NCBI GenBank assembly: GCA_020849625.1
Contig: JADLFV010000068.1
Location: 1-64,000, forward strand
Length of the DNA stretch: 64,000 nt
Reading direction: 5' to 3'
From: Phycisphaeraceae bacterium
GTDB lineage: Bacteria > Planctomycetota > Phycisphaerae > Phycisphaerales > Phycisphaeraceae
Positions 4,739 to 62,582 of the stretch are shown here, one piece after another; position 1 is the stretch's first letter, and each line of letters starts with the position of its first letter. Below the pieces are notes generated by a model, which saw only the letters and a program-made list of their open reading frames with translations, did no database searches and was not told the DNA's origin. The position numbers and the translations under genes are program-made.

Positions 4739-5272
4739 TCAGTCCTCCAACTTCTCCACGTTGCGGATCAGGTGCATGAACTGTTCGGTGAAGACGAAGT
4801 TTTCTTTGGGGAACTTCAAGCCGGAGCGGTTGCTGTCGATGTGGCTGAACATCAACTCGATGTCCGCTAGTTTGCGAGCTTCACCCGTGGCCGGGTCGAT
4901 CAATTCGGTGACGCCGGAGGTCGAAGCCCCGCTGGCGTCGTAGCGGACCATCTCGGCGCTGTGGCGGATGGTGAAGCCGGGCCGGGGCTGCACGGCGACG
5001 TCGAAGACGGCTTTGCCGATCTTGGCCAGGATCACTTTTTCCTTGAAGTCACCGGCATGTCCGACCAGGATGCCCGCGGTCTGGGCCATGCCTTCGATGA
5101 TCAGCGAGTGCGGCATCAGCGGGCGAGGTGGCTGCGGCGCACTTTCTGCACTTCCGGGGGCGGGGGCGAAGTGATCGTGCAGCACGTCCTCGGCCGCGCT
5201 GATGTTCTTCAGCGCCACCAGCTTCGCGCCGCGCTTCAACTCGAGGATGCGATCAATCCAGATCCAACGCAT
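4739..5272 (-). CDS. FabA/FabZ-like hotdog-fold 3-hydroxyacyl-ACP dehydratase
   Basis: A 177-aa protein of the beta-hydroxyacyl-ACP dehydratase family. The active-site region reads HDHF followed by PLMPHSLIIEGMAQTAG, matching the family pattern HFPG-PxMPGVLxxEAMAQ. Compared with that pattern, about 15 Pro/Ala-rich residues are inserted between HF and PLMP. They are encoded by a 25-bp inverted repeat holding the CTTCCGGGGG motif. The Glu and Gln of the second motif remain. ATG 5272 is chosen because residues further upstream are repeat-encoded. It is the last gene of a minus-strand cassette with an acyl carrier protein and a second hotdog gene, so a role in making an unusual acyl chain is inferred. 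Confidence 0.8.
   Translation of the reverse strand: MRWIWIDRILELKRGAKLVALKNISAAEDVLHDHFAPAPGSAESAPQPPRPLMPHSLIIEGMAQTAGILVGHAGDFKEKVILAKIGKAVFDVAVQPRPGFTIRHSAEMVRYDASGASTSGVTELIDPATGEARKLADIELMFSHIDSNRSGLKFPKENFVFTEQFMHLIRNVEKLED
5150..5168 (+). repeat. Dispersed 19-mer ACTTCCGGGGGCGGGGGCG, copy 1
   Basis: Identical 19-mers occur at 5150, 6612 and 52695, all in coding sequence. Here it lies antisense in the hotdog gene, flanked by CACTTC and GAAGTG, which are themselves inverted repeats. Confidence 0.85.
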
Positions 5273-5273
5273 G

Positions 5274-5372
5274 GGAAGGCACCAAGGCACCGAGGTACCA
5301 AGGCACCGAGATAGGGCATTCGAGGACCATTACCAAATCCTTGGTCCCTGGGTGCCTTGGTGCCTCGGTCCT
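5274..5372. repeat. Short-period repeat palindrome, unit GGCACCAAGGCACCGA
   Basis: Left arm (5274-5311) repeats GGCACCAA, GGCACCGA and GGTACCAA. Right arm (5341-5372) carries GGTGCCTTGGTGCCTCGGTC, the complement. It fills the gap between the acyl carrier protein stop and the next gene start in the same operon. An RNA hairpin here could weaken expression of the downstream hotdog gene. Confidence 0.85.
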
Positions 5373-6231: not shown

Positions 6232-6340
6232 GGGAAGGCACCAAGGGACCGAGGCACCGAGGCACCAAGGGAAAGAATCAGAGGTCACATCGCAGGCCCT
6301 TGATGCCTCGGTGCCTTGGTGCCTTGGTGCCTTCTTCCTT
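6232..6340. repeat. Short-period repeat palindrome, unit GGCACCAAGGGACCGA
   Basis: Left arm (6235-6272) repeats GGCACCAA, GGGACCGA and GGCACCGA. Right arm (6303-6332) repeats GGTGCCTT and TGCCTCGG. It has the same unit as the element at 5274-5372, about 900 bp away. It occupies the divergent gap between the FabZ-like gene and galK and ends 12 bp before the galK ATG. Confidence 0.85.
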
Positions 6341-6351
6341 ACCATACCGCC

Positions 6352-7518
6352 ATGACTGACCTGCCCGCACTTGTTTCTCGCTTCGCGGCCATCTTCGGCT
6401 CAACGCCCACCCATGCCGCCTCCGCTCCGGGGCGGGTCAATCTCATCGGCGAGCACACCGACTACAACGGCGGCTTCGTCCTGCCCATGGCCATCGATCG
6501 CCGCGCCACGCTGTTGGCCGCGGTGCGATCCGACACCTCGGTGCACCTGCGCTCCACCGCCATGCCCGACGAAGTCGTCTTCGACCTCTCGCAACCGTTG
6601 CAGCCTGAAACACTTCCGGGGGCGGGGGCGAGGTGGGGCAACTATGTCAAAGGCGCCATGGCCGGTTGCATCGACAAGGGATTCAAGCTGCCCGGCTGCG
6701 ATCTGCTGCTGGATTCGACCGTGCCCTCCGGCGGGGGACTGTCCAGCAGCGCGGCGATCGAGGTGGCAACCGTGACGCTATGCGAAGCGCTCTGCCAACG
6801 CACGCTGAACCCGGTGGACAAAGCATTGATCGCACAGCGGGCTGAGCACGAATTCGCCGGCGTTCCCTGCGGCATCATGGACCAGTTCATTGCCGCCTGC
6901 GGCCGCGCGGGCCATGCCCTGCTGATCGACTGCCGCTCGCACGAAACCGAACTGATACCGCTCGATGATCCGGCTGTCAGCGTGCTGATTATCAACAGCA
7001 ACGTGCCGCACGCCCTGGTCAACGGCGAGTACGCCAGGCGCCGCGCCGGTTGCGAGGCGGCTGCTAAAGTGCTCGGCGTTGATCTGCTGCGCGATGCGGA
7101 ATTGCTGCAACTGGAAGCGCACCGCGACAAGCTCGATGACGTCACGTATCGCCGGGCCCGGCACGTGATCGGCGAAATCGCTCGCACCCGTGCAGCAGCC
7201 CACCTGCTCCAGCAGCGCGATTACGCCGGCTTCGGCAAGCTGATGGTGCAGAGCCACGCCAGCCTGCGCGATGATTATGAAGTCAGTTGTCCGCAGGTCG
7301 ATGTGCTGGTGGACCTCACCTTGCAGCAGCAGGGCGTGCTCGGCAGCCGCATGACCGGCGGCGGCTTCGGCGGATGCACGGTGACACTGGTGGCGACCGA
7401 GCACGCCGAGCAGGTGCGCGATGCGGTCTGCGCCGCGTATGAAAAAGAGACCGGCCTTCAACCTTTTGCCTTCGTCAGCAGACCGGCCGACGGAGCGGGG
7501 ATCGTTTCACTGCCATGA
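6352..7518 (+). CDS. galK: Galactokinase
   Basis: A 388-aa GHMP kinase that phosphorylates galactose at C1 using ATP (Leloir pathway, cytoplasm). The galactokinase signature is near residue 28 (GRVNLIGEHTDYNGGFVLPM). The GHMP ATP-binding loop is PSGGGLSSSAA, and the C-terminal motif is GSRMTGGGFGGCTV. Length is typical. ATG 6352 fits the family N-terminus; the region upstream is repeat, and no clear ribosome site is present. A CTTCCGGGGGCGGGGGCG repeat encodes the loop LPGAGARWGNY. The stop overlaps the start of the next gene by 4 bp (ATGA). Confidence 0.95.
   Translation: MTDLPALVSRFAAIFGSTPTHAASAPGRVNLIGEHTDYNGGFVLPMAIDRRATLLAAVRSDTSVHLRSTAMPDEVVFDLSQPLQPETLPGAGARWGNYVKGAMAGCIDKGFKLPGCDLLLDSTVPSGGGLSSSAAIEVATVTLCEALCQRTLNPVDKALIAQRAEHEFAGVPCGIMDQFIAACGRAGHALLIDCRSHETELIPLDDPAVSVLIINSNVPHALVNGEYARRRAGCEAAAKVLGVDLLRDAELLQLEAHRDKLDDVTYRRARHVIGEIARTRAAAHLLQQRDYAGFGKLMVQSHASLRDDYEVSCPQVDVLVDLTLQQQGVLGSRMTGGGFGGCTVTLVATEHAEQVRDAVCAAYEKETGLQPFAFVSRPADGAGIVSLP
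6612..6630 (+). repeat. Dispersed 19-mer ACTTCCGGGGGCGGGGGCG, copy 2
   Basis: Lies sense in galK and is flanked by CACTTC and GAGGTG, as in copy 1. Confidence 0.85.
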
Positions 7519-12308: not shown

Positions 12309-15300
12309 TCACTTCGCGCCCAACTGCTCCAGCACGCGCGCCCGTTCCGCCTCCACGCGGGCCAGCTCGTCGCGGGTCTGCTGCACCAGGTGAGCGGGGG
12401 CCTTGTCCACGTAACCCTTGTTGTTGAGCCGCACCCGGAAGGCTGCGATGCATTTGTCCAGTTCCGCCAGGCGTTTTTCCAATCGCTGGCGCTCGGCTTC
12501 CGTGTCGGCTGCATGGTGCAGATATATTTCACCGATTGCGCGCACCGCCGTCACCGCGTCGGCTGGTTTGGCAGCTTCGGGGCCGACGTCGATCAGCTTC
12601 ACGTTGGCCAGTGCCTCGATCAGACCCTGGAACTCCTGCACGGCAGCCGCGGTCTTGATGGTGACATCGAACGTCTGCCGCGGGGGCAGGCTGGATTGGG
12701 TGCGGGCTTCGCGGATCATGTTGACCAGCTCGCGCAACTGCTCGAACTGCTGCTCGGCCGCCTCGTCGCGCAGTGTCACATCGACCCTGGGCCAGGCCGC
12801 TTTGACCAGCAATTCGCCTGCTGGCAATGCGAGTCCTTCGACGCCGCGCTGCGGATAGATGTCGTTGAGCGCTTCGTACAGCCGCTCCGTGACAAACGGC
12901 ATCGCGGGATGCAGCAACCGCAGCGACACGTCGAGGACTGACGCCAGCACTCTTTGTTGGATCGAATTAGTTTCCACCGTCGGCTTGATGGCCTCGATAT
13001 ACCAGTCGCACACGTCGCCCCAGATAAAGTGGTACAGATCGTCGGCGTAATTGTGGAAGTCATACGCATCCAGTGAGCGTGTGGTCTGCTCCGTGATCTG
13101 GGCAATGCGCGAAAGGATCCAACGATCGGGGAGAGCGGGTATCGGGTATCGGGTATCGGGTGTCGGGTTTGTGTTCAGTTTGCTGAGCGCAAAGCGCGTC
13201 GCGTTCCACAGTTTGTTGGCGAAGTTGCGGCCGTAGTCGAACTTCTCACTGGTGTTACGAGCCGCGGGCATGTCTTTGGTGGGCGTTGCTTCGCCGGAGG
13301 CCACGCCGTAGGACGAAACCATCTTTTCGCCCTTATGTTCTTGAATAGGTTGCGCCACCTTGTAGCCGTTGGATAGCGTCTTGTACTTGGGCTCGAACGG
13401 CTCACCACTTGCGGGGGCGACGCATTCGACCGGCAGACGCACGTCCTGCGTGTGCGTGGTCATCTGGGCCAGCGTGAAGCGCATGGCGTCGGAGCCGTGC
13501 GAGTGGATGATGTCCACCGGATCGACACCGTTGCCGAGCGATTTGGACATCTTCTGACCATGCCCGTCCTGGATCATGGCGTGAATGAACACGTCACGGA
13601 ACGGCAGTTGCCCCCGGAAGTAGAGGTTGAACATGACCATGCGCGACACCCAGAGCGTGATGATCTCGCGGGCCGTGCACAGCACGTTGGTGGGGTTCCA
13701 CGTTTTCAGTTCCGCGGTGTCGTCCGGCCAACCCAGTGTGGACAGGGGCCAAAGGGCGCTGCTGAACCAGGTGTCGAGAACGTCGGGGTCTTGGGTGTAA
13801 CCTGCCTTTTCTAGAACTGCTATGACTTCGTCGTCATTCTCGTAGTGCACGCAGACAAATGTCCCTGGATCTACAGAAGCGGTTTCTCCACCTGTCATCA
13901 AGCGACCGGCACCACGTGCAATACGACCCTCATTATCCCACTGATTCAGTTGGGATACAAAGCTACTCTGTTCACCTGCACGATAAGATTCAGCAGGTTC
14001 ACCAACTCTTGACCACACCGGAATACGATGGCCCCACCAGAGTTGGCGGCTGATGCACCAGTCGCGGATGTTGCGGTGCCACTGCTCGAAGGTCTTGGCG
14101 TAACGCTCGGGGGTGAAGGTCAGGATGTCTGATGTCTGATTGCTGATTGCTGATGTGTCGGAAGCGGGGGCGTCGCTGCGCTGCTTGGGGTTCATCGCTT
14201 GTAACGCGGCACCGGCTAGCTTGGGGTCGGTGACTTTCACGTACCACTGATCGCTCAGATACGGCTCGATCGCGGCGTGGCTGCGATAGCTGTGGCCCAC
14301 GGCGTGGCGGTAGGGGCGGATCTCTTCCATCAGGCCATGATCTTTGAACCAGCGCACGATCCACTTGCGGGCGTCCTCGCGCGACAGGCCCAGCAGCGGC
14401 TGGCATTCCTCGCTTGAATCATCCCAGCCATGTTGATTGGAGATCGATGCGTCGGGGGCCATGACGTTGACGATCGGCAGATTGTGGCGCTTGCCGATGT
14501 CGTAGTCGTTGGGGTCGTGGGCGGGGGTGACTTTCAAAAAGCCCGAAGCGTATTTGGCTTTGGGGTCATCGCTGTCGGGATTGGGAATCACCACGTAGTC
14601 GTCGCCGATGATGGGGATGCGGCGGTTGACGATGGGGAGGATGACGTGCTTGCCGATCAGTGCGGCGCGTGCGGTGTCCTTGGGGTTCACGGCCACGGCG
14701 GTGTCGCCGAGCATGGTTTCGGGGCGGGTGGTGGCGACGGTGACGTAAGGTGGATCGACGGCCGATGAATCGGCCTCCGCCAGGGGGTAGCGCATGTAGT
14801 AGAAGTTGCCGTCGATTTCCTCCATCTCGACTTCGTCGTCAGCGAGCGCTGTCTGCGTGATCGGGTCCCAGTTGACCAGGCGTTTGCCGCGGTAAATCAA
14901 TCCCCCCCGGAAGAGTTGGAAAAAGGCTTCACGAACGGCTTTAGCGCACTGGTCGTCCATGGTGAAGCGCTGGCGCTCCCAGTCGCAGGAGCAGCCCATG
15001 ACCTTGAGTTGATCGGTGATGCGCTTTTCGTATTCATCCTTCCATTTCTGGATGCGGGCGATGAACTGGTCGCGCGTGAAGTCGGTGCGCTTCCTGCCTT
15101 CTTCCTGCAGCACGCGCTTTTCCACCACGGTCTGGGTGGCGATGCCGGCATGATCGGTGCCGGGCATCCACATGGCGTTGTCGCCGAGCATGCGGTGATA
15201 GCGGATGAGGATGTCCTGCAGCGTGTTGTTCAGGGCATGGCCCATGTGCAGGGCGGCGGTGACGTTGGGCGGCGGGATGACGATGCTGTAAGGGGCTCCA

Positions 15301-15416: not shown

Positions 15417-15503
15417 GTCTGAAGTCTGATTGCGGATTGCTGATGTAGGAATGAGGATTGAGGCGATTTCTGAACATCAGCAATCAGCAATCAGACATCA
15501 GAG
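15417..15503. repeat. Short-period repeat palindrome, unit GTCTGATTGCTGAT
   Basis: Left arm GTCTGAAGTCTGATTGCGGA (15417 on) faces right arm ACATCAGCAATCAGCAATCA ending near 15503. It fills the whole gap between ffh and valS, touching the valS ATG on one side and the ffh stop on the other. Confidence 0.88.
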
Positions 15504-19433: not shown

Positions 19434-20243
19434 ATGAGTCCAACCAAGCCCAAGCATCGCAAACCCACTCTGGCTGACCAGGCCGACCGCTACAAACTCT
19501 ACGGCCAATCGGTGCAGGAGCCCGACCACGAGGTGGCCTTCTTCGACCAGGCCTACAAGGAAGCCTACGGCAGCAAACCGAAGCTGCTGCGCGAGGATTT
19601 CTGCGGCACGTTCGCCGTCTGCTGCGAATGGGTCAAGCGCGGCAAACAGCGGCAGGCCATCGGCGTCGATCTAGATCCCGAGCCGTTGAACTGGGGACGC
19701 GCCCACAACCTGGCCAAGCTCTCGGGCAATCAGCAGCAGCGGGTGAACCTGCTCCAGCAGGACGTGCGGCGGACGGACAAGGTCAAGGCTGACGTGCTGG
19801 CCGCCCAGAATTTTTCTTTCTGGATTTTCAAAACGCGCCAGGATCTGCTGCGCTACTTCAAGGTCGCCTATGCCAATCTCTCCAAGCGCGGCATCCTCGT
19901 GGCGGACATGATGGGCGGGGCTGACTGCTGGCTGGAGAACAACCAGGACGTGCGCAAGGTCAAAAGCTTCAAATACATCTGGGACTGCGTGCGTTTCAAT
20001 CCCATCACCCACGATTGCCTGTTCCACATTCACTTCAAGTTCAAGGACGGCAGCCGCCTGGAAGAAGCGTTCACCTACGACTGGCGGTTCTGGACACTGC
20101 CTGAGGTCTGTGAGTTGATGCGCGAGGCTGGCTTCCGTGAGACGAAGATCTACTGGGAGGGCGAGGACGAGGAAAACTGGTTCGCCACCCCGACCGCACC
20201 TGCCGATGCCTGCTGGTTAGCCTACGTGGTGGGGGTGAAGTAG
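19434..20243 (+). CDS. Class I SAM-dependent methyltransferase, substrate unknown
   Basis: A 269-aa protein. DFCGTFAVCCEWVKRG with IGVDLDPEPLNWG form the SAM-binding motif I and acidic post-I region. FSFWIFKTRQDLLRYF and LVADMMGGADCW follow in the place of motifs IV and V. The C-terminal half has the extra strands typical of small-molecule or protein methyltransferases (FWTLPEVCELMREAGF). Substrate not deducible. ATG 19434 preferred to TTG 19419. Its TAG stop is the first triplet of the repeat arm of the four-helix-bundle element that follows. Confidence 0.8.
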   Translation: MSPTKPKHRKPTLADQADRYKLYGQSVQEPDHEVAFFDQAYKEAYGSKPKLLREDFCGTFAVCCEWVKRGKQRQAIGVDLDPEPLNWGRAHNLAKLSGNQQQRVNLLQQDVRRTDKVKADVLAAQNFSFWIFKTRQDLLRYFKVAYANLSKRGILVADMMGGADCWLENNQDVRKVKSFKYIWDCVRFNPITHDCLFHIHFKFKDGSRLEEAFTYDWRFWTLPEVCELMREAGFRETKIYWEGEDEENWFATPTAPADACWLAYVVGVK

Positions 20244-20706
20244 GGAGTAGTTTAGGGAGTAGGCAGTAGGCAGTAGGGAGTAGAGGATTTAAGATGGGCG
20301 ATGAAGGTGACAGCGGAGCGATTCGCTCATATCGGGATTTGGTGGTGTGGCAGAAGGCGATGGACCTGGTGGATGCGGTTTATGAGTTGAGCAGCCGGTT
20401 TTCTGCGGAGGAAAAATATGCGCTGACCAGCCAGTTGCGCAGGGCGGTGGTGTCGGTGCCATCCAACATCGCCGAAGGCTACGGCCGGCAAAATCTTTGC
20501 GACTACATGCACCATCTGGCAATCGCCAATGGTTCGCTGAAGGAAGTCGAAACCCAGATCATCGTCGCCGGCCGCCAGAACTACATTACACGTGAAGATT
20601 CGCGTGTCGCCTGGGGTTTATGCCAGGAAGTCGGCAAACTGCTGAACGCTCTGAGAAAATCGCTATCCTAATCCCCTACTGCCTACTGCCTACTCCCTAC
20701 TGCCTA
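20241..20706. mobile_element. Four-helix-bundle gene enclosed by inverted short-period repeat arms (element 1)
   Basis: Left arm 20241-20284 repeats TAGGGAG and TAGGCAG (AGTAGGCAGTAGGCAGTAGG). Right arm 20672-20706 is the complementary CTACTGCCTACTGCCTACTC. Between them sits only the gene 20294-20671. The element takes up the whole space between the methyltransferase stop and hisS, whose ATG comes 6 bp after the right arm. The same unit forms gene-less palindromes at 21978-22118 and 25677-25807. The architecture recalls 23S rRNA intervening sequences, where a stem encloses a gene of this family. Confidence 0.75.
20294..20671 (+). CDS. Four-helix-bundle protein (S23 / 23S rRNA intervening-sequence family)
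   Basis: A 125-aa all-helical protein with the family core: SYRDLVVWQKAMDLVDAVYE, then ALTSQLRRAVVSVPSNIAEG (the VSVPSNIAEGYGR hallmark), then ANGSLKEVETQIIVAGR. Known: homologues are encoded in 23S rRNA intervening sequences, and a related fold (Avd) binds reverse transcriptase in diversity-generating retroelements; molecular function is unclear. GAGG lies 7 bp before ATG 20294. It stands alone between inverted repeat arms, so RNA-hairpin binding is an attractive inference. Confidence 0.93.
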   Translation: MGDEGDSGAIRSYRDLVVWQKAMDLVDAVYELSSRFSAEEKYALTSQLRRAVVSVPSNIAEGYGRQNLCDYMHHLAIANGSLKEVETQIIVAGRQNYITREDSRVAWGLCQEVGKLLNALRKSLS

Positions 20707-20712
20707 GCAACA

Positions 20713-22008
20713 ATGAAATTCCAATCCCCCAAAGGCACACGCGATTTCTACCCGCAGGACATGGCCTGGCGCCAGTTCCTGACCGACGCCTGGCGCAGCG
20801 TTTCCGTCCGTCACGGCTTCGAGCAGGTCGATGGCCCGATCTACGAGACGCTCGACCTCTACAAGGCCAAGAGCGGCGAAGGCATCGTCAGCGAACTGTT
20901 CCACTTCGAGGATCGCGGCGGGCGCGAGATGGCCATCCGCGCGGAGTTCACCCCCACGCTGGCCCGCATGGTGGCCGCCAAGGCCAACACGCTGTCGCGG
21001 CCGATCAAGTGGTTCGCCATTCCCAACCTGGTTCGCGCCGAGCGGCCCCAGCGCGGTCGCTTGCGCGAGCACTGGCAGTGGAACGTCGATTTGCTGGGTG
21101 TCGATTCACCGCAGGCCGACGCGGAAGTGATCGGGGTGGCGGTGGATTTTCTGCGCCAGGTGGGACTGACGCCGCAGCAGGTGCACGTCAAGATCAGCCA
21201 CCGCCGCGTGGTGCGGGCCATCCTGGCCAAGCTGGGCGTGCCGGATGAAAAGATGACCGAGGCCTTCGAGTTGCTGGATCGCCGGGACAAGATTCCGCCC
21301 GAGCAGTTCACGCAGAGCGCGATGAGCCTGGGACTGGACGAGCCGCGCGTCGAGCGCTTCAGCCAGATGTGCCGCCGCAAGTACCACACCGGCGACATCG
21401 ATCACCTGCGCCGCTCCATTGGCCTCGATGACTCCTTCAACGACCTGGGCGAACTGGACGCCCAACTGTCCGCCTTCGGCCTGACCGACTGGTGCGAATA
21501 TGACCTGGGCATCGTGCGCGGCCTGGCGTATTACACCGGCACCGTGTTCGAGCTGCACGAAGTGTCCGGGGTCGAACGCGCCATCGCCGGCGGCGGACGA
21601 TACGACCAACTCATCGAAACCTTCGGCGGACCGGCCATGAGTGCCGTCGGGTTCGGCATGGGCGACGTGGTCGTCACCAACGTGCTGCGCGACAAGGGCC
21701 TGCTGCCTGAGGACGTGGCGCCCGCGCCCGATGCCTTCGTGATCGCTTTGACCGATGCCGCCCAGGCTCAACTGCCGGGCGTCGTGGCCGCCCTGCGCCG
21801 CGCCGGCCGCCATGCCCGATTCAGCTACAAGGCCGGCCGCAACCTCGGCAAGCTGCTCAAGGAAGCCAGCCAGTGCCGCGCCCGTTTCGCCGTGATCCTC
21901 GACGACAAGGCGGCTGAGGGCGTCTGCGAGTTGAAGAACCTAGCCTCAGGTGAGCAGAATCAGGTGACGATCGAGGGTGTAGGGGATAGGGTGGGCAATA
22001 GTGAGTAG
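20713..22008 (+). CDS. hisS: Histidyl-tRNA synthetase
   Basis: A 431-aa class II synthetase. Motifs: KGTRDFYPQD at the N-terminus, AEFTPTLARM (motif 2 region with RAERPQRGRLREHWQWNVD), LGIVRGLAYYTGTVFE (HisA/B region) and GGGRYDQLIETFGG. The anticodon-binding domain occupies the C-terminus. Upstream is the repeat arm of element 1, so no ribosome site is visible before ATG 20713. The last residues (GVGDRVGNSE) and the TAG stop lie in another repeat element, so both gene ends touch repeats. Confidence 0.95.
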   Translation: MKFQSPKGTRDFYPQDMAWRQFLTDAWRSVSVRHGFEQVDGPIYETLDLYKAKSGEGIVSELFHFEDRGGREMAIRAEFTPTLARMVAAKANTLSRPIKWFAIPNLVRAERPQRGRLREHWQWNVDLLGVDSPQADAEVIGVAVDFLRQVGLTPQQVHVKISHRRVVRAILAKLGVPDEKMTEAFELLDRRDKIPPEQFTQSAMSLGLDEPRVERFSQMCRRKYHTGDIDHLRRSIGLDDSFNDLGELDAQLSAFGLTDWCEYDLGIVRGLAYYTGTVFELHEVSGVERAIAGGGRYDQLIETFGGPAMSAVGFGMGDVVVTNVLRDKGLLPEDVAPAPDAFVIALTDAAQAQLPGVVAALRRAGRHARFSYKAGRNLGKLLKEASQCRARFAVILDDKAAEGVCELKNLASGEQNQVTIEGVGDRVGNSE

Positions 22009-22118
22009 GCAGTAGGCAGTAGGGTTGTGACCCGAAACCCACGGCACTACGGCCTACATCCTTGGCCTTGTGCTACCGCCTATTCCCTACTCCCCACTGC
22101 CTACTGCCTACTCCCTTT
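21978..22118. repeat. Short-period repeat palindrome, unit TAGGCAG
   Basis: Left arm (21978-22025) repeats TAGGGGA, TAGGCAG and TAGGGTT. Right arm (22079-22118) repeats CTACTGC and CTACTCC. The spacer of about 55 bp has no gene. Same unit as element 1 and the palindrome at 25677. It contains the hisS stop codon and ends 17 bp before the next gene. Confidence 0.88.
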
Positions 22119-22134
22119 CCACTACAATCTCCCC

Positions 22135-22644
22135 GTGGCCCATCGCCGCTTCCACTACGACCGGGCGTTCGAGCATTATCTTCGCAGCAACGGCATCCCC
22201 TACGTGGCCGTGGACGAAGCCAAGCGGGCCTTGGCTGGGCGCAGCGAGCAGATCAAACTCAAGAGCTTCGACTTCGTGGTTTACAGCGAGTCGGGCGACA
22301 ACCTGCTGATCGACGTCAAAGGCCGCAAGCACTCGGGCAAGACGGGCAAGAGCTTGCAGAACTGGGTGACGCGCGATGACGTGCGTTGTCTGAAGCAGTG
22401 GTCGTCGATCTTCGGGCAAGGGTTCGCCTCAGCGTTCGTGTTCCTGTTCTGGTGCGATGTGCCGCCGCCGGATGCGTTGTTCATGGAGGTGTTCGAGTTC
22501 GGCGATCGCTGGTACAGCGTGCTGGCGGTGAAGCTGGACGATTACGAGCCGCACCTGCGCCCGCGCAGCGCCAAGTGGGACACGGTGTCGATCCCGGCTG
22601 AGGTCTTCGGGCGTGTTGCGGTGCCGCTGAAGAAACTGCTCTGA
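22135..22644 (+). CDS. Unknown protein with a possible PD-(D/E)xK nuclease-like core
   Basis: A 169-aa soluble protein starting at GTG 22135 (MAHRRFHYDRAFEHYL). The segment SFDFVVYSESGDNLLIDVKG has the spacing of a PD-(D/E)xK nuclease core (Asp, about 12 residues, then D-x-K), and a conserved-looking GRKHSGKTG follows. The C-terminal half is beta-rich (FVFLFWCDVP, WYSVLAVKLDDY). This is inference from a weak motif; I do not recognise a named family. ATG is lacking and no ribosome site is obvious, since the upstream repeat ends only 17 bp away. Confidence 0.6.
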   Translation: MAHRRFHYDRAFEHYLRSNGIPYVAVDEAKRALAGRSEQIKLKSFDFVVYSESGDNLLIDVKGRKHSGKTGKSLQNWVTRDDVRCLKQWSSIFGQGFASAFVFLFWCDVPPPDALFMEVFEFGDRWYSVLAVKLDDYEPHLRPRSAKWDTVSIPAEVFGRVAVPLKKLL

Positions 22645-22649
22645 TTTAG

Positions 22650-22770
22650 AACCCTCTCCCCCTGGGAGAGGGCAGGGTGAGGGCGGATCGATCGTGTTCG
22701 CGTTGTCACGATTGATGCCTCAAGCAAGTTCGGCCCTCACCCCAACCCTCTCCCAAGGGGAGAGGGGGTG
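22650..22770. repeat. Palindrome of ACCCTCTCCC/GGGAGAGGG type
   Basis: Left arm ACCCTCTCCCCCTGGGAGAG with GGCAGGGTGAGGGC (22650-22684) faces right arm GGCCCTCACCCCAACCCTCT with CCCAAGGGGAGAGGG (22732-22766). Similar CCCTCACCC-AACCCTCTCCC palindromes occur widely in GC-rich bacterial genomes. It fills the gap before ileS. Confidence 0.85.
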
Positions 22771-22831
22771 GTTAAACGGTCTTCGGCATGTTCCGACGAA
22801 ATCGGCTGCCAGCGGATAAACTACGCCCATT

Positions 22832-25672
22832 ATGTCCGACCCCAGCACCGAAAAGAAGTCCTACAAATCCACCCTCAACCTGCCCAAAACCGCCTTCGCC
22901 ATGAAGGCCAACCTGGTGCAGACCGAGCCCGCCAGCCAGAAACGCTGGCACAAGATCAATCTCTACGCCCGCATTCAGAAGGACCGGGCTGATCGCAACT
23001 GCCCCCGCTACGTCTTCCACGACGGCCCGCCCTACGCCAACGGCTCCATCCACCTCGGGCACCTGCTCAACAAGTGTCTCAAGGATTTCGTCGTGCGCAG
23101 CCGGCTGATGCTCGACTTCCAATGCCCCTACGTGCCCGGCTGGGACTGCCACGGCCTGCCCATCGAGCACAAGGTGATGCAGGACCTGGGCGCCGCGGCC
23201 CGGGAGATGCAGCCGATCCAGGTCCGCCGCAAGTGCAAGAGCTCCGCTGAAAAGTTCGTCAAACTCCAGAGCGGCCAGATGCAACGGCTGCTCACGCTCG
23301 CGGACTACAACGAACCCTATCTCACCATGGACCCGGCTTACGAAGCTGCTACGCTGGAGGTCTTCGCCGACCTGGTCGAAGCGGGTCTGGTCTATCGCGG
23401 CCTGAAACCCGTGCACTGGTCGATCGAAAATCGCACCGCGCTTGCGGATGCGGAGTTGGAGTATTACGACCGGGAAGATACGAGTGTATATGTGAAGTTC
23501 AAGATCGATGAGGTTGGTCACTTACAGCAGGATGACCTCAAACCACTTTTGGGCTCCAGTCTTTTGATTTGGACAACTACTCCTTGGACATTGCCCGCAA
23601 ATCTCGCTGTAGCAATCCACGAGGGATATGACTACGGCTTGTATGAACTACCCGATGGCAGCAGGGTGGTAGTTGCTGTTGACCTGGCCGAGAAAGTGCT
23701 CAGCAGAGGCGGATATACGAACATTGCTCCATCAAAAGTATACCGTGGTACGCAATTGGTTAGACCGTTACAGTATGTGAAATACAAGCATCCGTTCATT
23801 GAACGCTCGGGAAAAATAGTCGCCGCTGATTACGTCACGCTCGAAGATGGCACCGGCCTGGTGCACACCGCACCGGGGCACGGCGTCGAGGACTACCAGA
23901 CCGGCCTGCGCGAGGGGCTCGACATCTACTGCCCTGTGCGCGAGGACGGCACGTTCGATGACACAGTGCCCGATTGGCTGCGGGGCAAGAGCGTGTGGGA
24001 GGCCAACGAGTTGGTGTGTGTAAAGCTGCGCGAGAGCGCGCACATGTTCCACGAGCACAAGTTTACGCACAGCTATCCGCACGACTGGCGGGGCAAGACG
24101 CCGGTGATCTTCCGAGCGACGGAGCAGTGGTTTGTCGATGTGAATAAGCCGTTCAAGAACGGCGACACATTGCGGCAGCGGGCGCTGGATGTGACAGCCA
24201 GGGATGTGAAGTTCATCCCCGAGTGGGGCCGCAACCGCATGCGCGGCATGTTGGAGTCGCGCCCCGACTGGTGCCTGTCGCGGCAGCGGGCCTGGGGCCT
24301 GCCTATTCCCGCGTTTTATCCCCCGGAAGGTGTGGATGGTCCGCCGCTGCTGACTGCCGCGTCGGTTCGCGCCGTCGCCCGCACCGTGCGCGAGAACGGC
24401 TCCGACTGCTGGTTCCTCGCTCCCGCGCAGGATTTGCTCCAGTACTACAAGCCCGAGGATGACCCCGACGCACCCGACTGGATCAAGCCTCAAGCCTCAC
24501 CCCTCAAGCCTTCCTCCGACATCTTCGACGTCTGGTTCGAGTCCGGCTCGTCCTGGAATGCCGTCATCCGCCAGCGCTTCGGCGATGACGCTTTCCCCAC
24601 CGACCTCTACCTGGAAGGCTCCGACCAGCACCGCGGGTGGTTCCAGCTTTCGCTGCTGCCGGCCATCGGTGTCACGGGCCAGTCGCCGTTCAAAGCTGTG
24701 TTGACCCACGGCTTCATGGTCGATAAGGACGGCAAGAAGATGTCCAAGAGCCTCGGCAACACGCTCGAGGTCGAGGAACTGCTGAAGAATTACGGCGCGG
24801 ATGTTTGTCGCTGGTGGGTCAGCTCGCTGAACACGGACAACGACATCAAGGTCGATGAAAGCTACTTCAAGCTGGCGGGCGAAGAGTATCGCAAGGTGCG
24901 CAACACGATCCGTTACCTGCTCAGTTGCCTCAATGATTATGATCCCCAGCAACCGCAGCCGGAGTTGATGGAACTGGACAAGTGGCTGATGGGCGAGCTG
25001 CGCGAGTTGGTGCGCGACGTGCGCGGCTGCTACGAACGCTTCGAGTTTCGCCGCATTCACGAGCGGCTGTTCAACTTCTGCAACGACACGCTCTCGGCGG
25101 TGTACCTGGCGGCGGTCAAGGATCGCACTTACTGCGACAAGCCCGACAGCCCGCGGCGGCGCAGCGCACAGGCGGCCATGCACTGCACCGCATCGGCGTT
25201 GATCCGACTGCTGGCGCCGCTGCTGCCGCACACGGCCGATGAAGCGTGGAACGTGCTGAATCCCCAACTTCCGGGGAACGCCAGTGTGCACATGGAGACG
25301 TTGCCGCAGGAGAGCGAGATCGCTTTCGCTGCATCCGCGCTGCCGTGGTCGCAGTTGATGGAAGCCCGCGATGCCTGGCTGCGAGCGATCGAAGCGTTCC
25401 GTCAGGCCAACGGCATCGACAATCCGCTGGACCTGGGCCTGCGCATCGATGCATCAACGGAGGCGCTGGATGGTTTCGACCCGGTCGATCTGGCGGACCT
25501 GTGCGGCATCAGTCGCGTGGAGGTTGCCACTTCCGGTGGAGGTGGCGTGCAGGTACTGGACCTGCGCAGCGAGCCGCGCTGCGACCGCTCGTGGAAGCGC
25601 GACGGCTCGGTGAAGCAGCGCAGTGACGGCGGCTGGTTATCGGATCGTGACGCGGAGGCGGTGGGGGTGTGA
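22832..25672 (+). CDS. ileS: Isoleucyl-tRNA synthetase
   Basis: A 946-aa class I synthetase. ANGSIHLGHLLNK holds the HIGH motif near residue 70, WTTTPWTLPANLAV marks the editing domain and GKKMSKSLGNTLEV the KMSKS loop. Three oddities. About 360 bp in the editing region (23461-23820) are only about 47% GC by my count, against over 60% around it. The repeat CAAGCCT (24482-24513) is translated as IKPQASPLKPS just before DVWFESG. The C-terminal zinc-binding segment is degraded: CDRSW replaces the usual CxxCW and no second cysteine pair is seen. No ribosome site is obvious at ATG 22832. Confidence 0.95.
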   Translation: MSDPSTEKKSYKSTLNLPKTAFAMKANLVQTEPASQKRWHKINLYARIQKDRADRNCPRYVFHDGPPYANGSIHLGHLLNKCLKDFVVRSRLMLDFQCPYVPGWDCHGLPIEHKVMQDLGAAAREMQPIQVRRKCKSSAEKFVKLQSGQMQRLLTLADYNEPYLTMDPAYEAATLEVFADLVEAGLVYRGLKPVHWSIENRTALADAELEYYDREDTSVYVKFKIDEVGHLQQDDLKPLLGSSLLIWTTTPWTLPANLAVAIHEGYDYGLYELPDGSRVVVAVDLAEKVLSRGGYTNIAPSKVYRGTQLVRPLQYVKYKHPFIERSGKIVAADYVTLEDGTGLVHTAPGHGVEDYQTGLREGLDIYCPVREDGTFDDTVPDWLRGKSVWEANELVCVKLRESAHMFHEHKFTHSYPHDWRGKTPVIFRATEQWFVDVNKPFKNGDTLRQRALDVTARDVKFIPEWGRNRMRGMLESRPDWCLSRQRAWGLPIPAFYPPEGVDGPPLLTAASVRAVARTVRENGSDCWFLAPAQDLLQYYKPEDDPDAPDWIKPQASPLKPSSDIFDVWFESGSSWNAVIRQRFGDDAFPTDLYLEGSDQHRGWFQLSLLPAIGVTGQSPFKAVLTHGFMVDKDGKKMSKSLGNTLEVEELLKNYGADVCRWWVSSLNTDNDIKVDESYFKLAGEEYRKVRNTIRYLLSCLNDYDPQQPQPELMELDKWLMGELRELVRDVRGCYERFEFRRIHERLFNFCNDTLSAVYLAAVKDRTYCDKPDSPRRRSAQAAMHCTASALIRLLAPLLPHTADEAWNVLNPQLPGNASVHMETLPQESEIAFAASALPWSQLMEARDAWLRAIEAFRQANGIDNPLDLGLRIDASTEALDGFDPVDLADLCGISRVEVATSGGGGVQVLDLRSEPRCDRSWKRDGSVKQRSDGGWLSDRDAEAVGV
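24482..24513 (+). repeat. In-frame short-period repeat in ileS, unit CAAGCCT
   Basis: ATCAAGCCTCAAGCCTCACC then CCTCAAGCC. It encodes IKPQASPLKPS between conserved synthetase blocks. Single arm only. Confidence 0.7.
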
Positions 25673-25676
25673 GGTC

Positions 25677-25807
25677 AGGCAGTAGGGATTAGGCAGTAGG
25701 CAGTAGGGTTGTTGTCCGCGATTGATTGTGTCATGTAACGCCTCACTGGCTGAAGGTCTAAACCCTACTCCCTAATCCCTACTGCCTACTCCCTACTCCC
25801 TACCCCC
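25677..25807. repeat. Short-period repeat palindrome, unit TAGGCAG/TAGGGAT
   Basis: Left arm GGCAGTAGGGATTAGGCAGT (25678 on) and right arm CCCTACTCCCTAATCCCTAC (25763 on) share one unit, around a spacer of about 50 bp. Same unit as element 1 and 21978-22118. It fills the gap between ileS and the next gene. Confidence 0.88.
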
Positions 25808-27824: not shown

Positions 27825-27920
27825 GATGTCTGATTTCTGATTGCTGATGTCTGATGTGAATGACACCTGCGGTCGCGCGCTATTCGGACATCAGCAATCA
27901 GCAAACTGAGATCAGAAATT
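27825..27920. repeat. Short-period repeat palindrome, unit GTCTGATTGCTGAT
   Basis: Left arm ATGTCTGATTTCTGATTGCT (from 27826) faces right arm GACATCAGCAATCAGCAAAC (from about 27886). Same unit as 15417-15503. It lies between two convergent genes; the murC stop and its last six codons are inside the right arm. Confidence 0.88.
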
Positions 27921-37784: not shown

Positions 37785-38301
37785 GGCAAATGTCTAATGC
37801 CTAATGTCTACTGTCTAATACCACAAATCTCTCATGCTTAGAAGGGGGCATTTGATGACAGGGGACGCGGGTGAGGACACGGGGCAGAAACAGAGTTACG
37901 ACTTGGAGGAAAGGACGGCTAGATTTGGGCAGGACGTGATCGCATTTGCCAAGACCCTATCGCGGTCCACGATCAATGAAGTCTTGATAAAGCAACTGGT
38001 AAGATCAGGAACGAGCATCGGGGCCAATTACTGTGAGGCGGACGATGCAGAAAGTCGAAAGGACTTTCGTCACAAGGTCGGCTTGTGTAAGAAGGAATCG
38101 CGGGAAACCAAGCACTGGTTTCGCATGATAGCAACCGCTGAACCAACGCGGCGAAGTGAAGTGGTTGTGCTCTGGCGTGAGGCAAAGGAACTTCATTTGA
38201 TCTTCACTTCAATTCGCAGGAGCATCGATGCCGGCTAACCACCATACATTACCCGCCGACTTCCCAGGCATTAGACATTAGTCATTAGACATTAGACATT
38301 C
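37785..38301. mobile_element. Four-helix-bundle gene enclosed by inverted short-period repeat arms (element 2)
   Basis: Left arm 37785-37821 repeats AATGTCT, AATGCCT and ACTGTCT. Right arm 38266-38301 carries GGCATTAGACATTAGTCATT and ATTAGACATTAGACATT, the complement. Only the gene 37855-38238 lies between. The repeat unit is unrelated to that of element 1 although the architecture is the same. The element fills the space between hemB and the next gene, whose ATG follows 6 bp after the right arm. Confidence 0.75.
37855..38238 (+). CDS. Four-helix-bundle protein (S23-like), second and divergent copy
   Basis: A 127-aa all-helical protein. LEERTARFGQDVIAFAKTLS, VLIKQLVRSGTSIGANYCEA and DFRHKVGLCKKESRETKHWF follow the family helix pattern; GTSIGANYCEA replaces the SVPSNIAEG signature. 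Subfamily differs from the copy at 20294, so the two were probably acquired separately. GGGGG lies 6 bp before ATG 37855. GC is visibly lower (about half) than neighbouring genes, a sign of transfer. Function unknown, as for the family. Confidence 0.85.
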   Translation: MTGDAGEDTGQKQSYDLEERTARFGQDVIAFAKTLSRSTINEVLIKQLVRSGTSIGANYCEADDAESRKDFRHKVGLCKKESRETKHWFRMIATAEPTRRSEVVVLWREAKELHLIFTSIRRSIDAG

Positions 38302-42553: not shown

Positions 42554-43150
42554 CTACTGCAGCTTGCGCGGCATGGTGGAAGCGACGATGCGAATGGGCG
42601 GGAGATTGCCAACCTCGACCTGCATCGTGTTGTCCTGGTCGGGCTGGACGGTCAGATCCATCGAGCCGCGCTCGAGCACGAGCACGCCCTGGCTGTCGGT
42701 TCGGCGGAACAGATGGAACACCGCCTCGGTCACGCCGCCCAGCAGAGGCTGTTCGAGTTCACCGGCCCCTTCGTCATAAACCACCCAAAGCTGCTGAACG
42801 TCACTGCGGTACTCGACGCGGACATAGCGGCCGTGGGCGTCGAGCAGCTCGATGTAGTTGCTCTCGATGACGTCGCCGTCGAGGGTGGCGTTGGGCGGAT
42901 CGGGCAGCAGCGGGCCGTGGGCGGTGCTGGTACGGACCAGTGCCAGCAGGCGATGGGTGACCATGCGGGTGGCGGTCTGGCTGGAGGCCGACTGGGCGGC
43001 CACGGCATAAGCGTGGAAGCTGGCGTCTATGGCGACCATCGTGGCCGTGAGCAGCAGCGCGGTGATGGCCAGGGCGATGAGCATTTCCACGAGGGAGAAG
43101 CCGCGAGGAGATTTGCGAATTTTGATTTTAGATTTTAGATTGCTTTGCAT
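42554..43150 (-). CDS. Minor pseudopilin (PulJ/GspJ-like)
   Basis: A 198-aa prepilin-like protein. The type III signal is RGFSLVEMLIALAITALLLT, cleaved after Gly, followed by the membrane helix. Size and C-terminal part (VTEAVFHLFRRTDSQGVLVL) fit GspJ-like minor pseudopilins, sometimes with weak identity. The leader before the cleavage site (QSNLKSKIKIRKS) is encoded by the AATCTAAA repeat arm. Last gene of the minus-strand pilus/secretion cluster that starts at pilT. Confidence 0.82.
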   Translation of the reverse strand: MQSNLKSKIKIRKSPRGFSLVEMLIALAITALLLTATMVAIDASFHAYAVAAQSASSQTATRMVTHRLLALVRTSTAHGPLLPDPPNATLDGDVIESNYIELLDAHGRYVRVEYRSDVQQLWVVYDEGAGELEQPLLGGVTEAVFHLFRRTDSQGVLVLERGSMDLTVQPDQDNTMQVEVGNLPPIRIVASTMPRKLQ

Positions 43151-43209
43151 GTGGATCGCCCGTGTGGTTGTTTTCCAAATCTAAAATCGCAAATCTAAAA
43201 TCTAAAATT
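43110..43209. repeat. Short-period repeat palindrome, unit AATCTAAA
   Basis: Left arm GATTTTAGATTTTAGATT (43124-43141) and AATTTTG face right arm AAATCTAAAATCGCAAATCT (from 43177) and AAAATCTAAAATT. Spacer about 35 bp. It contains the start codon and leader of the pseudopilin and ends 5 bp before the preceding gene's stop. Confidence 0.88.
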
Positions 43210-45498: not shown

Positions 45499-46078
45499 AC
45501 TTCGGCACGACCCACGACAACTGCGTGAGCGTCATGGGGCTTTCGTCGTTTGGACCCTGATAGCTGACGGTCACCGTGACCCGTACCATGTCGGTGGACC
45601 CGATGGCGAACGTGGTGCTGGAGGCCAGGTTGCTGGGCAGCACGCCTTCAACCATCACGAACTGCGTCCAGCCTTCCATGTTGGGAATGACCTGGCGCAG
45701 GGCGTTGACCGGCGGATTGATGGTCAACCCCGCGCCCATGCCGGAGGGATTGACGATGCCGGCAAAATCATCGAGGTCGTCGTAGTCCTCGATGTCCGGC
45801 TCGTTGAGCTCGGGGCCGAGGGTCGAGGCGTGACTGAGCGGATCGTGCAGCGGCAGCGGCAGCGTCAACTCGCGGATTTCATTGGCCAGCAGCATGGCGG
45901 TGCCGGTGTGCTGGGCCCAGTCATTTTTCTGGTGGTACGCCTGCTGAGCGGCCACGATGGCCAGCACGCCGGTGCCCACGATGACCGTGGTCAGCGCCGC
46001 CTCGATGAGCGTGAAGCCGGCGGCGCGGCGGTGCCGCGACGATGGCGGATGGCGGATGGCGGATGGCGGATGGTGCAT
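45497..46078 (-). CDS. Minor pseudopilin (PilV/GspI-like)
   Basis: A 193-aa prepilin-like protein. Type III signal RRAAGFTLIEAALTTVIVGT, cleaved after Gly. The first 20 or so residues (MHHPPSAIRHPPSSRHRR) are unusually long for a leader and are encoded by the GATGGCG repeat. The rest is beta-rich, ending MTLTQLSWVVPK. It lies between the PilX-like gene and GspF. ATG 46078 has AAGG about 8 bp upstream; the open frame continues to 46213 through the repeat spacer, but that part is not protein-like. Confidence 0.82.
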   Translation of the reverse strand: MHHPPSAIRHPPSSRHRRAAGFTLIEAALTTVIVGTGVLAIVAAQQAYHQKNDWAQHTGTAMLLANEIRELTLPLPLHDPLSHASTLGPELNEPDIEDYDDLDDFAGIVNPSGMGAGLTINPPVNALRQVIPNMEGWTQFVMVEGVLPSNLASSTTFAIGSTDMVRVTVTVSYQGPNDESPMTLTQLSWVVPK

Positions 46079-46212
46079 GGCCGAACCTTTTTTCTCAAAA
46101 ATAACTTTACGATTCATTCCAGCCACGAGGTAATGGAACCATGCAAGACCGAGAACTTGGCGGCTTACCCAACCGCTACAATCCGCCATCCGCCAGCGCC
46201 CATCCGCCATCA
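46041..46212. repeat. Short-period repeat palindrome, unit GATGGCG
   Basis: Left arm GATGGCGGATGGCGGATGGC (46041 on) continues to GGATGGTGC. Right arm ATCCGCCATCCGCCAGCGCC with CATCCGCCATCA ends at 46212. The spacer of about 105 bp is A/T-rich and without a gene. It overlaps the 5' end of the pseudopilin gene and the stop codon of gspF. Confidence 0.88.
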
Positions 46213-57500: not shown

Positions 57501-58465
57501 TCGGCGATGGCGTCCTCGTGTTCCTTCAGTTGCCGGGCGGCGCGGGCGCGGTCGGCCTCGGCCTGCTCCAGTTGATCAGCCAAGGCAGCCAACTGCGTCT
57601 GCAGGCGGTGATGCTCGCAGAGTGAGTCAACCAGTTGCAGTTCGTGCAGGCGCTGCGTGTGTTCCTGGAATGAGCGGGCGCGGGCGGCCTGCATCTTGAC
57701 GCTGCGCAGGCGGCGCTCGGTGTCTTCCAAACGGGTGCGGACCAGGGCCAGATTCTGCTCGGTCTTTTCCAGGTGACGGGCGGCTTCCTTCTTGCGGGCC
57801 TTGAAACGGCTGATCCCGGCCGCCTCCTCGAAGATTACGCGGCGCTGCTCGGGATTGGAGTCAAGCATCTGGGCGACTTTGCCCTGCTCGATGACGCTGT
57901 AAGCGTCGGTGCCGATGCCGGTGTCCATGAACAGTTCGCGGATGTCGCGCAGGCGGACGCGGCGGCCGTTGATCAGGTACTCGCTGGTGCCGTCACGGAA
58001 AAGCTGGCGGGTGACGGCCACGGTGTCCAGATCGACGGGCAGAGCGCGGGAGGGTCGGGTATCGGGTATCGGGTTTCGGGTTTCGGATTTTGCATCCGAG
58101 GCTTCGCCGGACGGCTCAGCCTGCAGCTTCTGCGTGGATTCGGGACCATCAGCTTCCTCCCGATACCCGATACCCGATACCCGATACCCGTTGTCTTTGA
58201 TCACCGGATTATCGAAGGTCAACGTCACGCTGGCCATGCCGCAGGGTTTGCGGGTGGCGGATCCGTTGAAGATCACGTCCATCATGGCCCCGCCGCGCAG
58301 GCTCTTGGCCGACTGCTCACCGAGGACCCATTTGATGGCATCGACAATATTGCTTTTGCCGCAGCCGTTGGGCCCGACAATGCCGACGATGGGCGGATCG
58401 AAGGGAATCTCGGTCCGGTTGGCGAACGACTTGAAACCGGCGAGTGTAAGCTTGGCCAGACGCAT
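54596..58465 (-). CDS. smc: Chromosome segregation protein SMC
   Basis: A 1289-aa SMC ATPase. [15 protein letters not shown] at the N-terminus with Walker [15 protein letters not shown]; two coiled coils (about residues 240-560 and 760-1090) around a hinge (residues 570-720, [20 protein letters not shown]); signature [17 protein letters not shown] and Walker [20 protein letters not shown]. Known role: chromosome condensation and segregation with ScpAB. It is about 100 aa longer than usual; part of the excess is a 45-50 residue insertion in the N-terminal head encoded by a repeat palindrome (58054-58190). Confidence 0.96.
58054..58190 (-). repeat. Short-period repeat palindrome inserted in frame in smc, unit GGGTATC
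   Basis: Left arm 58054-58091 (GTCGGGTATCGGGTATCGGG and TTTCGGGTTTCGG) faces right arm 58154-58190 (CCCGATACCCGATACCCGAT and ACCCG). On the coding strand the arms give [10 protein letters not shown] and [12 protein letters not shown] around a spacer of about 25 residues. It separates LTFDN from [15 protein letters not shown], which adjoin closely in typical SMC heads. Confidence 0.9.
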
Positions 58466-62462: not shown

Positions 62463-62582
62463 GGAAATTCGAAACTCGAAACTCGAAATAAATCCCAAAC
62501 CCCAAAGTTCACCCTGGTACGGCTTTTCCTGTTCGAGTTTTGAGTTTATTTCGAGTTTCGAGTTTCGGATTTCGAGTTTTTG
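62463..62582. repeat. Short-period repeat palindrome, unit TCGAAACTCGAAA
   Basis: Left arm GAAATTCGAAACTCGAAACT with CGAAATAAATCCCAAA faces right arm GAGTTTATTTCGAGTTTCGA with GTTTCGGATTTCGAG. The spacer of about 30 bp has no gene. It lies between the AraC gene and the aminotransferase gene. Confidence 0.88.

Follow-up and report, generated by a model that had tools for sequence, protein, structure and literature searches.

IVP genes between inverted arrays of seven- and eight-nucleotide units: a probable family of small mobile elements

TAGGCAG palindromes in the window

The window, the whole 64-kb stretch of DNA that was analysed, contains three palindromes with arms built of the unit TAGGCAG, one of which encloses a gene. 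Such a trio had been described in an earlier note on this sequence, and its account is borne out with small corrections. The features are as follows.

20241-20706, plus strand: gene-bearing element, unit TAGGCAG/TAGGGAG; the upstream ORF stops inside the first unit and hisS starts 7 nt after the element
20253-20283, plus strand: left arm of this element, 4.4 units of 7 nt
20294-20671, plus strand: IVP gene, 125 amino acids (PF05635, E=1.5e-36; bAvd PF22296, 5.6e-11)
20674-20706, minus strand: right (inverted) arm of this element
21978-22118, no strand: gene-less TAGGCAG palindrome, arms 22000-22024 and 22092-22116; the hisS reading frame ends inside it (22008)
25677-25807, no strand: gene-less TAGGCAG palindrome, arms 25677-25708 and 25763-25807, 4 nt after the ileS stop

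Where 3.6 copies of TAGGCAG would be expected in the window there are 15, a count reached by none of 100 shuffles, and 12 of the 15 fall within the three palindromes. The arms of the gene-bearing element are perfectly complementary over 26 nt. The product of the enclosed gene belongs to the 23S rRNA-intervening sequence protein family (PF05635; IVP), scoring 125.3 bits against a curated cut-off of 33.8. It is the only gene of the element; a Pfam scan identified no recognised transposase and no nuclease or recombinase signature in the protein. The element is not inside a 23S rRNA gene, but sits between a protein ORF and hisS, and an Rfam search of the window returned no match. As RNA the gene-bearing element is predicted to form a strong hairpin (z -6.8), and single-strand folding of the two short palindromes, the first of which lies between hisS and a further ORF, gave z scores of -3.6 and -4.1. 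The 54-nt spacers of both gene-less copies were inspected for gene remnants, a check that the note had proposed, and none was seen.

The gap before hisS is 472 nt in the window. Three relatives with the same gene order and no array called at this place have gaps of 73, 102 and 121 nt. In two further genomes, G023 and G014, the gap is 119 and 315 nt, respectively, and each has its own arrays within it. Relatives were searched for an orthologous site lacking the window copies; gene order is kept there, but the intergenic DNA is too diverged to align, and no empty-site pair was found for the source-genome elements. In a relative from another genus (L057), hisS is flanked by that genome's own heptamer arrays, at 4888-4931 and 6558-6596, with G-rich units.

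The window contains further elements of this kind, listed below.

5276-5369, no strand: gene-less palindrome, 8-nt unit AAGGCACC
6235-6333, no strand: gene-less palindrome, 8-nt unit AAGGCACC
14124-14154, no strand: lone GATGTCT/GATTGCT array, no inverted partner
15418-15502, no strand: gene-less palindrome, GATTGCT-type units
27825-27913, no strand: gene-less palindrome, GATGTCT-type units
37789-38300, plus strand: second gene-bearing element, unit AATGTCT (IVP match 37912-38196, E=7.6e-12)
43120-43208, no strand: gene-less palindrome, unit ATTTTAG
46041-46211, no strand: gene-less palindrome, unit GATGGCG
58055-58190, no strand: gene-less palindrome, unit TCGGGTA
62464-62574, no strand: gene-less palindrome, unit CGAAACT, with the inner motif common to the CGAAACT family

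The first two correspond to a pair noticed earlier under GGCACCAA; both are indeed palindromes, and their unit is 8 nt. A proposed GATGTCT pair held in part: 15418-15502 is a palindrome, whereas 14124-14154 is a lone array with no inverted partner within 800 nt, and the group has a third member at 27825-27913. Another dispersed palindrome (AACCCTCTCCC ... GGGAGAGGG) occupies 22650-22767 and has 84% DNA matches on contigs C7 and C12.

Repeat arrays across the source genome

In 454,787 bases from five source-genome contigs, 7 and 8 were the dominant periods (91 and 14 arrays, respectively), whereas an order-3 Markov control for these bases yielded no array of either period. Across two samples totalling 748,677 bases, the window included, 140 elements were called, 72 of them with an inverted partner. 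Their median length is 97 nt (quartiles 88-130) and the median arm, 31 nt, equals 4.4 units of 7. The arrays are tandem 7-nt units in intergenic DNA, as in STRR-type repeats, and numerous unit words were found again on several contigs. The genome has six PF05635 genes. Inverted arrays flank five of them, with a different word in each case; the sixth gene (L003) displays no inverted arms by the threshold used. Two gene-sized spans between inverted arrays of the same word, L112 14186-14714 and L037 11648-12260, were rejected as IVP-type elements as they hold host-type ORFs, which we take to encode an RbfA-like and a YlbF-like protein, respectively.

The proximity of the TAGGCAG copies had suggested that unit types cluster along the genome through local spread or conversion. 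Unit families were defined by shared 7-mers, single linkage having been rejected because it merged unlike units. On the contigs with IVP genes, including the discovery contig, four same-unit pairs lay within 3 kb against 0.82 expected (p=0.0065), while none of the six pairs in the second sample did so. With all contigs except the discovery contig the figures were two against 0.89 (p=0.22), and the proposal was thus not upheld genome-wide. Three TAGGCAG elements within 5.6 kb arose in 191 of 20,000 relabellings, an unadjusted result from a test picked after the trio had been seen. Clustering by unit is unproven, though pairs with 8-nt units, three of which are outside the window contig, and one cluster on a Nostoc plasmid are compatible with it.

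Inverted arms at IVP genes across bacteria

Of 145 IVP loci, 138 were examined, seven being dropped because a contig end was too near. Inverted flanking arms were called when their score was at least 14 and above that of all 50 shuffles. By this measure 105 loci have arms, and in 100 of these the units are of 7 or 8 nt (period 7 in 81, period 8 in 19). Armed loci made up 5/6 of the source-genome set, 24/27 of that from relatives, 21/27 of that from the phylum and 55/78 in an 80-locus scan; the remaining 33, including L003, fell below the threshold. By contrast, arms were found at only 2 of 600 random places in the source genome and at 2 of 140 off-gene places along the same contigs; in either control, one of the two had period 7 or 8. 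In a later set, which included a few loci already counted, 26 of the 32 examined (of 49) had arms.

These data show that arms go with IVP genes across phyla. The taxa include Gemmatimonadetes, Chloroploca, Kapaibacterium, Akkermansia, Acidobacteria, Betaproteobacteria, Bosea, Chitinophaga, Flavobacterium, Buchananbacteria and Nostoc, and weaker arms were evident in a Methanophagales archaeon. The two arms of one element can agree even in the order of variant units (L002 and L089). At L161 the arms are exceptionally long, with more than 230 nt of GGTGGAC-type units on each side of the IVP gene.

Gene-bearing insertions in cyanobacterial plasmids

The existence of homologous plasmid sites with and without an element indicates that the elements are mobile. 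Site A is filled in Trichormus and Scytonema plasmids and empty in plasmids of Aulosira, Microchaete and Nostoc linckia, which are about 97% identical. The empty sequence is AAAGTAATTAAC, and the filled version repeats GTAAT on both sides, a 5-bp target duplication. In Scytonema the left arm at this site has two units fewer than in Trichormus, showing that units are gained or lost. Site C is filled in three Nostoc plasmids and empty in four, with a 5-bp target duplication, TTCTA. At site D, filled in one plasmid and empty in others, only ATG is repeated exactly and 35 extra nt are unexplained. At sites B (after an integrase gene) and E (between nrdB and nrdA) one lineage has the element and another lacks it, with no clear duplication at either site. 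Clean target duplications, GTAAT and TTCTA, are therefore a feature of two of the seven sites, A and C, whereas B, E and F do not resolve. Presence and absence at orthologous sites was observed at A, C and D, and at the gene-less sites F and G described below, and, like the target duplications, concerns plasmid relatives of the window element.

Site A also provides an example of decay. In the Nostoc C052 plasmid L292 it retains the left arm beside a broken piece of the IVP gene, indicating that decay in place happens. At all five gene-bearing plasmid sites, as in the window, a stop codon adjoins the element. In Calothrix brevissima the same IVP element is present on plasmids 1 and 2 (L239 and L240), within a common backbone block.

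Gene-less insertions

Gene-less insertions were sought in two plasmid families; none was found in the first, while the second, from Nostoc, contained them. At site F, pC052_A and L303 carry a gene-less palindrome of ~130 nt that is absent from pNsp_c, L304 and pC052_D. In pNsp_a and L298 a second gene-less palindrome of the same word is nested inside the first, the arms being common to both copies and the spacers different. Site G harbours a 141-nt gene-less palindrome in pC052_A that is absent from pNsp_c; its target is another heptamer array, and the 4-nt GTCA repeat is therefore ambiguous. Gene-bearing and gene-less forms are thus both polymorphic insertions in homologous plasmids. By analogy with these Nostoc cases, the data support the suggestion in the earlier note that the short forms in the window are non-autonomous derivatives. 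A second example of the pattern described there is the plasmid pNsp_a, in which 16 kb contain one IVP element together with five gene-less arrays of the same word.

Some short families have more in common than their arms. Five short CGAAACT elements of the source genome have a common inner motif beyond the arms, which also borders the gene-bearing CGAAACT element L005. Gene-less Nostoc elements of one word contain a conserved structured insert (GGGGATTCAGACC ... hairpin CCACTAAAT/ATTTAGTGG), located at L311 12237-12438 and 28220-28391 and, inverted, at site F of L298. An Rfam search of three Nostoc stretches, this insert included, gave no match; the insert is possibly an RNA cargo. Nested elements with the same arms and different spacers occur both at L311 (about 23956-24220) and at site F of L298, as if the cargo between the arms can be exchanged.

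Unit word and IVP sequence

IVP sequence covaries with the unit. In a Mantel test, into which only pairs of equal unit length entered, protein identity and unit similarity gave r 0.318 overall, a value reached by none of 2000 permutations (p=0.0005). The coefficient was 0.289 for pairs below 60% protein identity and 0.254 below 50% (0/2000 permutations). The covariation is moderate, and the most distant pairs supply part of the signal. Two Betaproteobacteria, an Acidobacterium and a Chitinophaga, for example, have the common words AGGATTC/AGGATCG/AGGATCA with nearest protein identities of 56-66%. The rule is not strict, as L185 and L225 are 73% identical and have unlike units. When read on the sense strand of the gene, the units contain AG in 84 of 100 cases and CT in 17 of 100, indicating that the arms have polarity.

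The IVP genes of one Trichormus and one Nostoc plasmid differ with a dS of about 1.2 and a dN/dS of 0.11-0.12, yet both have AGAATTC/AGGAGTC-type arms, at different sites. Both protein and word therefore look selected. Mutual information between residues and unit positions provided only weak leads, such as a link of unit position 3 to residues 66 and 72. Polar residues that are invariant in the family are Q47, S54, N58, E61, R65, S81 and E84. We know of no nuclease or recombinase signature in IVP; judged from conservation, these residues are candidates for an unrecognised active site.

A model for movement, and its alternatives

We consider it likely, with a probability of about 0.7 for the statement as a whole, that these repeats are a small mobile-element family in which IVP reads its own unit and gene-less copies are moved in trans by the IVP of their unit. 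In the gene-bearing form a single IVP gene is enclosed by a pair of inverted arrays, with some four to five tandem 7- or 8-nt units per array; the gene-less form has the same arms around a short spacer. The elements are most likely moved by their IVP, and IVP is probably the reader of the unit word. The protein may recognise the repeats of its unit in single-stranded or hairpin form, perhaps with one unit per protomer, and would then recruit or perform cutting and joining. A gene-less copy would move when acted on in trans by the IVP of its unit. Of the window copies, 20241-20706 would be the gene-bearing TAGGCAG member, and 21978-22118 and 25677-25807 non-autonomous members or relics of it. 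A solved homologue from Xanthomonas campestris, XCC0516 (2gsc), comprises five identical chains, and the title of the corresponding paper refers to five four-helix bundles. An arm of four to five units and a five-fold ring together suggest one unit per subunit. Against mobilisation in trans stands the observation that 72 paired elements of many unit types lie in about a sixth of a genome with only six IVP genes.

A rival view is that gene-less forms are only relics, each a once gene-bearing copy that lost its gene in place, and that nothing moves in trans. We regard this as doubtful, although L292, with its left arm and broken IVP piece where relatives are full or empty, is an instance of such loss, and lone arrays are frequent, 72 of the 140 called elements being paired. 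The short forms, however, far outnumber the gene-bearing ones and are of tight size (median 97 nt, quartiles 88-130), some of their families have spacer sequence in common, and gene-less copies vary by presence and absence at sites F and G and are nested in one another. It is unlikely, in our view, that another enzyme, a Y1/REP-associated transposase or a reverse transcriptase (RT), moves the elements in trans with IVP as a passenger or helper, like Avd. Avd is a helper in diversity-generating retroelements. IVP is homologous to Avd (bAvd match; PMC10053308), the arms look like REPIN doublets, and in 294 genomes IVP co-occurs with Y1 (120/151 genomes with IVP against 65/143 without; odds ratio 4.6) and with RT (100/151 against 59/143; odds ratio 2.8), associations that genome size and mobile load may confound. 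An obligate Y1 or RT partner was rejected because 15 of the 151 IVP genomes have no match to either; among these are G030 and G038, which are 100% and 98% complete and both have armed IVP genes. In the source genome the sole RT match is on contig C86, while the TAGGCAG element is on C68. Purifying selection on the IVP gene and its covariation with the arms also argue against a passenger. Very improbable, finally, is an incidental link to IVP, under which the palindromes would be common repeats prone to slippage and retained for a role as terminators or G-quadruplex signals. A stop codon does adjoin palindromes in the window and all five gene-bearing plasmid sites, and quadruplex formation was argued for GGGAATC arrays (Rehm et al. 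2015), but A/T-rich units such as ATTTTAG also serve as arms, period-7/8 arms occur at 100/138 IVP loci against 1/600 control places, and clean insertions with filled and empty sites already disfavour ordinary repeats.

Relation to known repeats and mobile elements

The closest analogue of the IVP-driven elements proposed here is the system of REPINs with RAYT genes. There, too, a gene flanked by inverted repeats coexists with many gene-less intergenic doublets for which mobilisation in trans was proposed (PMC3116915), and the present elements are likewise inverted palindromic doublets in many copies (72 paired in 748,677 bases). They differ in that the gene between the repeats is IVP rather than a Y1 transposase, 31 of the 151 IVP genomes being devoid of Y1, and in that the arms are arrays of 7/8-nt units and not single REPs. 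The intervening sequences (IVS) of 23S rRNA with an S23/IVP gene encode the same protein family, as a single ORF in the loop of a terminal inverted repeat. In Coxiella, tandem GACAGAT heptamers precede the ORF, their number varies between strains and RNase III cuts at the first repeat; such sequences were suggested to be mobile long ago (PMC4990558). Unlike these, the present elements lie between protein genes, have target duplications in the plasmid cases, vary in unit from element to element and have gene-less relatives. Diversity-generating retroelements contain a homologous four-helix-bundle protein, Avd; unlike in those systems, no reverse transcriptase is near the window IVP gene.

To our knowledge, bacterial heptamer repeats and the IVP/S23 family, although each known for decades, have no accepted function. 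Joining the two gives a testable mobile-element system composed of a small protein, a readable DNA word and gene-less satellites, with a great number of natural IVP/word pairs on offer. Some of the long-known seven-letter repeats of bacteria may be accounted for by IVP elements. A wider proposal, which we hold at even odds taken as a whole, is that IVP founds a new transposon class. Its pentameric four-helix-bundle ring would read arrays of 7/8-nt units, about one per protomer, with a word for each lineage; gene-less arrays would be mobilisable satellites, and much bacterial heptamer content, together with the 23S rRNA intervening sequences, would be its products. The IVP system itself would extend transposition to a kind in which no transposase is recognised, and would bear on how Avd acts in diversity-generating retroelements. 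In the open-licence full-text literature, a body that leaves out preprints, no report joining heptamer arrays to IVP genes outside rRNA was found; prior work of this kind elsewhere is possible.

Among described heptamers, the TAACTGA repeats of Beggiatoaceae are abundant intergenic arrays common to distant lineages (PMC4679880). Their membership of the proposed class is doubtful, as they are almost all direct repeats ahead of start codons, a single inverted case being described. The GGGAATC heptamers of Xanthomonas and GGGGA[C/T]T of Nostoc resemble the present arms in having period 7, about four units and convergent pairs, of which Xanthomonas has 70-75; the same paper reports few inverted pairs in Nostoc and, generally, no link to mobile elements (PMC4692102). 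A search for an XCC0516-type locus at which GGGAATC arms could be looked for gave, among the matches listed, 59% identity to XCC0516 at best. The IVP of L278, 59% identical to X. campestris XCC0516 over 66 residues, is flanked by CGGGAAT arms, and a Nostoc IVP (L190) by AGTGGGG arms.
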